Assembly: GCA_015709495.1 (NCBI GenBank)
Contig: CP054189.1
Location: 496,001 to 560,000, forward strand
DNA from: Chthonomonadaceae bacterium
GTDB taxonomy: Bacteria > Armatimonadota > Fimbriimonadia > Fimbriimonadales > Fimbriimonadaceae
Direction: 5' to 3'
Length of the DNA stretch: 64,000 bases
The notes under the pieces were generated by a model. That model was not told where the DNA came from. It made no database searches and saw only the letters and a list, made by a program, of their open reading frames with translations. Positions 39,654 through 42,099 of the stretch are shown piece by piece. A program made the position numbers and the translations under genes. Numbering within the stretch: position 1 is the first letter of the stretch; every line of letters begins with the position of its first letter.

Positions 39654-41153
39654 ATGAACCGGATCCTTCTGGGCGCAGAGACCGAGTACGGACTGTTCGT
39701 AGAAGGTCGCTCGCCGGAGGATCAGGTCGAAGATGCGAAAGCGCTCGTCCGGTCATATCCGGGCGAGTGCTTTTTAGGTTGGGACTACCGGGACGAGACG
39801 CCCCGTAGCGATCTCAGGGGATTCGAGGTCGGCCAGCTTAGCGTCGATCCGAACGATCAGAAGTTCGAGCGTGAAGACGCTTCCTCGTGGGACTCTGAAT
39901 CGCGAGCCGACCGGGTCTTGCCGAACGGCGCGAGGCTCTACAACGACCACGGACACCCCGAATACGCCACGCCGGAGTGTTGGAGCGTCGGCGAATTGGT
40001 CCGTCACGATCTGGCGGGAGAGTGGGCGGTTCAAAGGGCGGCTAGAGCCTTTGAGGCCCACACCGAACGCCGCGTTCGCCTCTACAAGAACAACACGGAC
40101 TACCACGGAGCTTCCTATGGCGCTCACGAAAGCTACCTCGCGCCCCGATCATTGGTGTTCGAAGAACTCTACGCAGCCGTGTCTCCGATTCTCGTGGCGA
40201 GAACGGTTCTTTGCGGCGCAGGGAAGGTAGGAAGCGAGTCGGGCAAGGCGTGCGACTATCAGCTAAGCCAGCGGGCGGACTTCCTCACGACTTCTTGCAG
40301 CGTCGATACGCTCTATCGTAGGCCCGTGTTCAACACGCGCGACGAGCCTCACGCCGACCCGACTCATTGGATTCGGCTCCACGTCATCGCCGGGGACGCC
40401 AACTTGAGCCCGGCCGCGATCGCCGCAAGGTTCGGGCTCGTCAAGCTCGCGCTGATGCTCGCCGCAGTGGGTCGCGCTCCGAAGTTTTCGATCTCCGACC
40501 TCCCCCGCGCGCTGAACGGGGTGAGCCGAGACGCAACGCACCGCTTCGAAATCCCGCTCGAAAGCGGCCGGACCACCTCCGCTTACGAGGTCTTGCTGGG
40601 CTATTTCGCGGCGTTCGAGCAGGCGGCCACCGCTGGCGAGGAGTTCTGCGACGAGGACGCGAACGAGATGCTCGCGTTGATTCCAACCTGGAAGAAAGAC
40701 CTCGAATCGCTCCAAGAGGGCTTCGAGCGCTTCGCGGCGCGTTCGGATTGGGCTGCAAAGAAGCTGCTTCTCGATCAGGTCGCCACCGATCTCCCCGGCG
40801 GATGGAAGAGTCGAGACCTGCAATCCTATGACCTCGAATTCCACAATATCGACCCCGACGAGGGGCTCTACTTCGCTCTACTGGAAATGGGCGCGGTCGA
40901 TCCACGCCCCGCTCCCGCGGAACTGGAAGAAAGGCTGGCGCGAGTTCTTGAACCGACGAGGGCCGCCGTTCGATCGGCTCTCGTCCGCAATCACAAGGAG
41001 AACCTCGTCTCGGTGAACTGGCGACGGGTAGCCCTCAGGCATGAAGGCGGGATCGTTGAACTCGATCTTGCGCCCGAGCGAGTCTATCCGCAGGAACTCG
41101 ATGGATTGTCCGACGTAGGTACTCTTGTAGCCCAACTATCGGAGGAGTCATGA
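39654..41153 (+). CDS. dop: Dop-like Pup/UBact deamidase (Pup ligase/deamidase superfamily)
   Basis: This 499-residue protein is of the Dop/PafA glutamine-synthetase-like family. Visible marks are GAETEYGLF (metal-binding Glu pair, residues 9 and 11), the catalytic Asp98 in NGARLYNDHGHPEYATPE, YKNNTDYHGASYGAHESYL, CGAGKVGSESG, and NTRDEPHADPTHWIRLHVIAGDAN. An acidic insert at residues ~45-85 corresponds to the Dop-loop, absent from PafA, so deamidase/depupylase is favoured over ligase. It would convert the C-terminal Gln of the adjacent UBact protein to Glu and may remove UBact from targets. Whether it also ligates is unknown. It is coupled to UBact by ATGA. Confidence 0.85.
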   Translation: MNRILLGAETEYGLFVEGRSPEDQVEDAKALVRSYPGECFLGWDYRDETPRSDLRGFEVGQLSVDPNDQKFEREDASSWDSESRADRVLPNGARLYNDHGHPEYATPECWSVGELVRHDLAGEWAVQRAARAFEAHTERRVRLYKNNTDYHGASYGAHESYLAPRSLVFEELYAAVSPILVARTVLCGAGKVGSESGKACDYQLSQRADFLTTSCSVDTLYRRPVFNTRDEPHADPTHWIRLHVIAGDANLSPAAIAARFGLVKLALMLAAVGRAPKFSISDLPRALNGVSRDATHRFEIPLESGRTTSAYEVLLGYFAAFEQAATAGEEFCDEDANEMLALIPTWKKDLESLQEGFERFAARSDWAAKKLLLDQVATDLPGGWKSRDLQSYDLEFHNIDPDEGLYFALLEMGAVDPRPAPAELEERLARVLEPTRAAVRSALVRNHKENLVSVNWRRVALRHEGGIVELDLAPERVYPQELDGLSDVGTLVAQLSEES

Positions 41154-41335
41154 CGATTCGAGGAGACGAACGAAAGGTCCGCAAGGTGGGACCTGCCCCC
41201 AAGTCCAAGCAGGACGACACAGGCCCAAGCCGCCCTAACGTGCCGAAACCAGGCGGGCCCAACGAACTGATCAAGCGCCTCCGCAAGGTCGATCCCGACC
41301 AAGCCAAGAAGTACCGCCAGCGGTCGGGACAATGA
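41150..41335 (+). CDS. ubact: UBact, Pup-like ubiquitin-like protein
   Basis: This is a 61-residue, highly charged, probably disordered protein. The N-terminal half is basic and Pro/Ser-rich; the C-terminal half carries the UBact signature ending in RKVDPDQAKKYRQRSGQ. Like mycobacterial Pup it ends in Gln, so deamidation to Glu is expected before isopeptide attachment to target lysines. UBact was described in several Gram-negative phyla, including Armatimonadota, as the modifier of a proteasome system. The flanking ATGA overlaps with dop and prcB make this a compact three-gene module. The match is by motif and context; no other small protein family fits as well. Confidence 0.88.
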   Translation: MTIRGDERKVRKVGPAPKSKQDDTGPSRPNVPKPGGPNELIKRLRKVDPDQAKKYRQRSGQ

Positions 41336-42099
41336 AAAGTTCAATTCATCAAACGTTTGCCGAACTCGTCGGCTTCCCGCCTGCGAATTGGGCCGCGGCC
41401 CCCAGCAAAGCGCTTCAGGCGCACGGCACGACGGTCTTGGCGCTCAGGTTCGATGAAGGCGTGATCGTGCTCGGCGACCGCAGGGCGACGGCGGGCAACC
41501 TCGTCATGTACGACCAAGCAGAGAAGATCATGGCCATCGACGACTTCACCTTGTTGGCCCTGAGCGGTTCGTTCGCGAAATCAGTGGAATCCGCCCGATT
41601 CCTGAAGCACTCATTCAAGTACTACCGTAGATTGACCCTCGGCCAGCTCTCTCTCGACGGCAAGCTCCAGGAGATCTCCCGCGTGATGGCTTCGAACTTT
41701 GAACTCGCGATGCAGGGAATCGGGGTGTTCCTCCCCATCGTCGCCGCTTACGACCCGGAGAGCGATAGCTTCCACCTCTACTTCTTTGACGGCGCGGGCG
41801 CCCGGTTCCAGAACCACGCATACGCTTGCGCCGGATCGGGGTCGGAGCGCATTCGAGGGGTGTTCGAGTACCTCACCCGAACCAAGGGACCTTGGGATTC
41901 AAGGCCGCTCGACGACGTTCTGTCAGACGGGCTGATCATGCTCGACATCGCGTCCGAGTTGGACTCGGCGACCGGCGGCTTCCGCAGGGTGTTGCCTACT
42001 GCGCGGGTCTTGCGCCGCGAAGGGGTAGGCCCGATCCCCGACGATCGGCTCGCGGCTGCGGCACAGGCCGTACTCGGCCAAAACGCGGCAAGGTCGTAA
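41332..42099 (+). CDS. prcB: 20S proteasome beta subunit PrcB
   Basis: This 255-residue Ntn hydrolase has a 32-residue propeptide ending HG, cut before Thr33, giving mature TTVLALRF. Counting from that Thr1, Asp17 lies in GDRRAT and Lys33 in QAEKIMA, the full catalytic triad; GSGSERIRG supplies the later serine loop. It is therefore an active peptidase subunit, expected to form the beta rings of a 20S core and digest UBact-tagged proteins. It overlaps UBact by ATGA. The next gene is a glycoside hydrolase, so no prcA follows. Confidence 0.93.
   Translation: MKSSIHQTFAELVGFPPANWAAAPSKALQAHGTTVLALRFDEGVIVLGDRRATAGNLVMYDQAEKIMAIDDFTLLALSGSFAKSVESARFLKHSFKYYRRLTLGQLSLDGKLQEISRVMASNFELAMQGIGVFLPIVAAYDPESDSFHLYFFDGAGARFQNHAYACAGSGSERIRGVFEYLTRTKGPWDSRPLDDVLSDGLIMLDIASELDSATGGFRRVLPTARVLRREGVGPIPDDRLAAAAQAVLGQNAARS

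Follow-up and report, generated by a model that had tools for sequence, protein, structure and literature searches.

Our analysis revealed a dop-UBact-prcB gene cluster that almost certainly belongs to a UBact-proteasome system of conventional type and full gene complement, the other genes of which lie elsewhere on the same chromosome; the evidence comes from gene content, orthology, active-site residues and synteny. The window, i.e. the whole stretch of 64,000 nucleotides that was analysed, corresponds to C1:496001-560000 of a single-contig genome (G000; 2,897,187 bp, 99.63% complete, 0.17% contamination). Positions without prefix refer to the window, those on C1 to the chromosome.

The dop-UBact-prcB cluster

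Three genes on the plus strand make up the cluster. The first gene of the operon, dop (39654..41153), encodes a Dop-type depupylase/deamidase homologue of 499 aa and is followed by the gene for the ubiquitin-like modifier UBact (41150..41335; 61 aa, C-terminus RSGQ) and by prcB (41332..42099), which encodes a 20S proteasome beta subunit of 255 aa. Both junctions, dop/UBact at 41150..41153 and UBact/prcB at 41332..41335, are 4-base ATGA overlaps on the plus strand that can be read from the sequence. UBact was single-copy in a whole-genome search and matched PF20513 with 68.7 bits and the NCBIfam UBact model NF033388 with 81 bits, both above the curated cut-offs, and since these matches coincide with ATGA-joined genes, the three-gene anatomy is real and not a chance pattern of open reading frames. 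Upstream, the stop codon of a 433-aa open reading frame without known family directly adjoins the dop ATG, and 3′ of prcB follow a GHL10-type glycoside-hydrolase-like protein and then a GH2-type protein. The first-pass annotation had described three ATGA-coupled genes with glycoside hydrolases next to them and with no prcA, pafA or Mpa/ARC gene nearby, and this description holds in each respect: the whole-genome searches gave no further PF00227, Pup_ligase or UBact match inside the window, where the Mpa model yielded just a trivial 26-residue AAA match (C1:523547).

Dop and its relative PafA could be told apart by several means. The window Dop matched PF03136 with an E-value of 1.7e-124 and scored higher against the Dop model TIGR03688 (325 bits) than against the PafA model TIGR03686 (267 bits). 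A 40-sequence Dop/PafA tree split the genes located upstream of UBact from those located downstream of prcA with 100/100 support, placing the window gene with this position-defined dop set and a second gene of the genome, at 1536 kb, with the pafA set. An insertion at the place of the Dop-loop, a hallmark of Dop (PMC7947786), is present in the window Dop and absent from the 1536-kb PafA. The modifier ends in RSGQ, a form of the conserved UBact C-terminus R-S-G-E/Q, and by analogy with Pup-GGQ it would need to be deamidated before ligation. Across Armatimonadota the same C-terminus (window 41321-41332) varies between RSGE and RSGQ from genome to genome, and the two are mixed even inside one family (E in G080, Q in most of the family). 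Deamidation by Dop should be needed solely for the Q-form UBacts.

Partner genes elsewhere on the chromosome

One of two readings offered by the first-pass annotation was that the partners are encoded elsewhere, and the complete-genome search bore this out, with prcA, pafA and an Mpa/ARC ATPase gene all found on the same chromosome. The alpha subunit gene prcA (C1:166140-166826, plus strand) was matched by TIGR03691, the model for alpha subunits of bacteria, with an E-value of 5.4e-18 and by a profile of relatives with 3.7e-97, a profile of 13 sequences that includes the PrcA of G000 itself. The Mpa/ARC-type ATPase gene (C1:343387-345042, minus strand; TIGR03689 448 bits, positions 8-509 of 512) is full length and encodes an AAA and two proteasomal-ATPase OB domains (OB_N, OB_C). 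The second Pup_ligase (PF03136) gene of the genome is pafA (C1:1536159-1537622, plus strand), encoding the PafA-type ligase. The UBact-proteasome genes are spread over four chromosomal loci and do not form an all-in-one cluster; a single cluster is the usual layout of the UBact-proteasome system, not its defining function. Downstream of the ATPase gene (C1:337k-343k, L014), Pfam identified genes for a phage-type integrase and an ISL3 transposase with other open reading frames between them; this region is perhaps an integrated element.

PrcA scored 14.1 bits against PF00227, below the cut-off of 22.4, and a general Pfam proteasome search therefore misses it; in G000 this model matches just PrcB and the true HslV. 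A PF00227 search over 291 genomes had likewise suggested a family mostly without alpha subunit, a picture that was overturned by TIGR03691 and the relatives' profile. When the PrcA profile was searched against the PDB, the matches up to an E-value of 0.01 were all alpha subunits, with Rhodococcus and Mycobacterium tuberculosis (Mtb) PrcA at the top. Among the UBact-type components of G000, UBact alone reaches the strict NCBIfam equivalog cut-off, and a relative that has the complete standard cluster shows this pattern as well.

Features of the subunits and of the ATPase

PrcB scored 125.5 bits against TIGR03690, below the cut-off of 191.9. It carries a propeptide of about 32 residues, with Thr33, Asp49 and Lys65 corresponding to the catalytic Thr1, to Asp17 and to Lys33, respectively. 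G32, T33, D49 and K65 did not vary among 17 sequences, of which 16 come from loci with prcB next to prcA, and the protein shares ~41-56% identity with PrcBs encoded beside prcA. The best PDB matches of its AlphaFold model (pLDDT 84) were all Mtb/Rhodococcus PrcB, in agreement with the sequence profile. For PrcA a relative's protein, from family locus L233, was modelled (pLDDT 91); the model has an N-terminal helix and its best matches were Mtb and Rhodococcus proteasome chains, including the Rhodococcus alpha chain 1q5q_A.

The C-terminus of the ATPase departs from the familiar pattern. Among ~50 UBact-type ATPases, most have a basic stretch near the C-terminus and two aliphatic residues at the very end (e.g. 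RRNII, RKTII), the aliphatic pair coming no more than two or three positions behind a basic residue, and these tails are alike in clustered and scattered genomes. The HbYX/GQYL tail, which is used by Mpa and archaeal PAN, occurred in none of the ATPase loci examined (L014, L094-L096, L187-L216, L252-L296). In PrcA, Lys48 is invariant in the aligned sequences, at what we take to be the position of the putative ATPase-tail pocket lysine of alpha subunits. The UBact-type proteasomal ATPases might conceivably use a non-canonical mode of docking to the PrcA ring, an idea that we put forward tentatively and consider somewhat unlikely.

Gene order and gene content across relatives

The first-pass annotation had proposed comparing gene order in relatives and held that a standard cluster there would speak against its own proposal; such clusters were found in Armatimonadota outside Fimbriimonadaceae, which carry, as do Bipolaricaulota, the standard (ATPase-)dop-UBact-prcB-prcA-pafA. 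The full run ATPase-dop-UBact-prcB-prcA-pafA is present in outgroup phylum members (G045, G183, G021) and at L252, L254-L256, L258, L262, L263, L269, L270, L276, L282, L290 and L294-L296. Closer to the window, families f3 and f4 of the same order (G163, G173, G176) have dop-UBact-prcB-prcA(-pafA) with the ATPase elsewhere, and in family f2 (G066/L251) a prcB-prcA pair lies apart from dop-UBact. The other Fimbriimonadaceae loci examined all had dop-UBact-prcB alone (11/11: one more genome of the same species, one from the genus and another nine from the family). Conversely, 33 of the 34 consecutive prcA loci L217-L250, mostly from Fimbriimonadaceae, were without any other component, the exception being L233 with an ATPase ~7 kb from prcA, and conserved neighbours of prcA were seen just in the same-species genome. 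The distance between prcA and UBact exceeds 330 kb in each of the single-contig genomes G000, G135, G080, G119, G126, G150 and G153. Because relatives share the layout and prcA lies far off in single-contig genomes, the scattering is a stable family trait and not a misassembly.

PrcA was detected in 74 of the 77 UBact-positive Fimbriimonadaceae genomes searched (both counts tallied by hand from the UBact and PrcA tables); the three exceptions are 92%, 68% and 73% complete. All UBact-positive family genomes that are at least 90% complete encode at least two Pup_ligase genes, and all except G117 the ATPase. Order-wide, genomes at least 90% complete contained PrcA in 83/88, Pup_ligase in 85/88 and the ATPase in 84/88 cases. 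One UBact-positive family genome (G101, 92% complete) has two Pup_ligase genes and an ATPase and gave no PrcA match, which reflects either an assembly gap or real loss. Two reduced family genomes of 1.5 Mb (G133, G134; 97% complete) gave no match to UBact, Pup_ligase, prcA, ATPase or PF00227, so that the whole system and HslV appear to have been lost together. The dop-UBact-prcB-prcA run at three Bipolaricaulota/Acetothermia loci (L275, L288, L289; with pafA in L275 and L289) shows that the system reaches beyond Armatimonadota. A Candidatus Fraserbacteria locus (L286) reads ATPase-dop-prcB-prcA-pafA, and no UBact was detected between dop and prcB; its modifier may be diverged or of another kind.

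Alternative explanations

The other reading of the first-pass annotation was that PrcB forms a simpler, HslV-like particle of beta subunits only, in a system that is truly minimal. A prcB without adjoining prcA, the lack of an alpha subunit in the generic Pfam proteasome search and ATPases without the canonical HbYX/QYL tail would all fit this idea, which we nevertheless regard as very improbable and which the evidence does not support. The alpha subunit gene is present in G000 and in nearly all UBact-positive family genomes searched, PrcB resembles the PrcBs encoded next to prcA, and genomes in which prcB and prcA adjoin have an ATPase tail of this type too. PrcB is also of the 20S type and far from HslV, with 125 bits against TIGR03690 and 20-26 bits against HslV models (cut-offs 137-158), for which true HslV scores 249-254; it does not show the HslV sequence signature, and the genome does not lack an alpha subunit as an HslV-like particle would entail. 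G000 encodes a separate HslV and HslU, their genes being unlinked (hslV at C1:2605k; hslU at C1:873559-874992, 597 bits) and constituting a system apart from the proteasome. A beta-only particle is needed for none of the observations.

That the layout is an assembly artefact by which prcA, pafA and the ATPase gene became displaced, as the first-pass annotation had allowed for, has a practically negligible probability, and nothing was found in its favour. G000 is a single complete contig, the three-gene layout recurs in the eleven relatives, and the separation of prcA from UBact is seen in independent single-contig genomes; these independent complete genomes rule a misassembly out. A further possibility is that all components are present and the proteasome of the G000 strain is silenced by an IS256/Mutator-family insertion upstream of prcA. 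The transposase gene (C1:164837-166033, L126:6837-8033), with likely terminal inverted repeats, ends ~107 bp before the prcA ATG, and the insertion lies in a T-run ~55 bp upstream of this ATG, at a site that is uninterrupted in the same-species genome G135 (L146). The prcA coding region is intact, however, and a promoter could sit in the remaining 55 bp or come from the element; a promoter/terminator scan around prcA showed no promoter consensus either way. The insertion sequence could alter prcA expression in G000, but we consider silencing of the proteasome unlikely.

Proposed function and significance

For the complete UBact-proteasome system, assembly, enzymatic steps and degradation can be proposed by homology to the Pup-proteasome. 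Dop would convert RSGQ at the UBact C-terminus into RSGE by deamidating the final Gln, and would also strip UBact from substrates, and PafA would join UBact to substrate lysines. A hexameric ATPase would recognise and unfold the UBact-tagged proteins, which would then be degraded by the 20S core after autocleavage of PrcB before Thr33. This core is predicted to consist of 28 subunits, with PrcA alpha rings and PrcB beta rings in the order PrcA7-PrcB7-PrcB7-PrcA7. The odd layout most likely arose in the Fimbriimonadales lineage, when an ancestral cluster of the order ATPase-dop-UBact-prcB-prcA-pafA broke up.

These results remove the false lead of a proteasome without alpha subunits, which arose since PrcA of the UBact type has diverged too far to be caught by the general Pfam model and since prcA of Fimbriimonadaceae has left the cluster. 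Surveys based on synteny or on PF00227 will miscall such bacteria as lacking PrcA. The cluster breakup in Armatimonadota is a clean record of a multi-gene proteolysis system that dispersed with all genes retained. The most open of the side observations is that UBact-type ATPases share a conserved tail other than HbYX.

Comparison with known systems

With HslVU the system has in common that PrcB is a peptidase of the N-terminal-threonine, proteasome-fold type; in contrast to HslV, the PrcB of the window is a 20S beta subunit, and G000 has its own HslV and HslU. The ATPase of the Pup-proteasome of Mycobacterium tuberculosis has a GQYL-type C-terminus, whereas that of G000 ends in ...KTII. The M. 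tuberculosis system (PMC8223512) comprises a homologous ligase, deamidase/depupylase, ATPase and alpha and beta subunits, but its genes are clustered, the modifier in G000 is UBact and not Pup, and the homologous components of G000 have diverged and fall below the NCBIfam equivalog cut-offs. UBact-proteasome systems are already known (Lehmann et al. 2017, BBRC 483:946, as cited in PMC12751074), and like these G000 encodes UBact, Dop, PafA, PrcA, PrcB and an Mpa/ARC ATPase, although at four loci with dop-UBact-prcB alone together. The system is a complete member of this known kind, in a dispersed layout that is common to the family.
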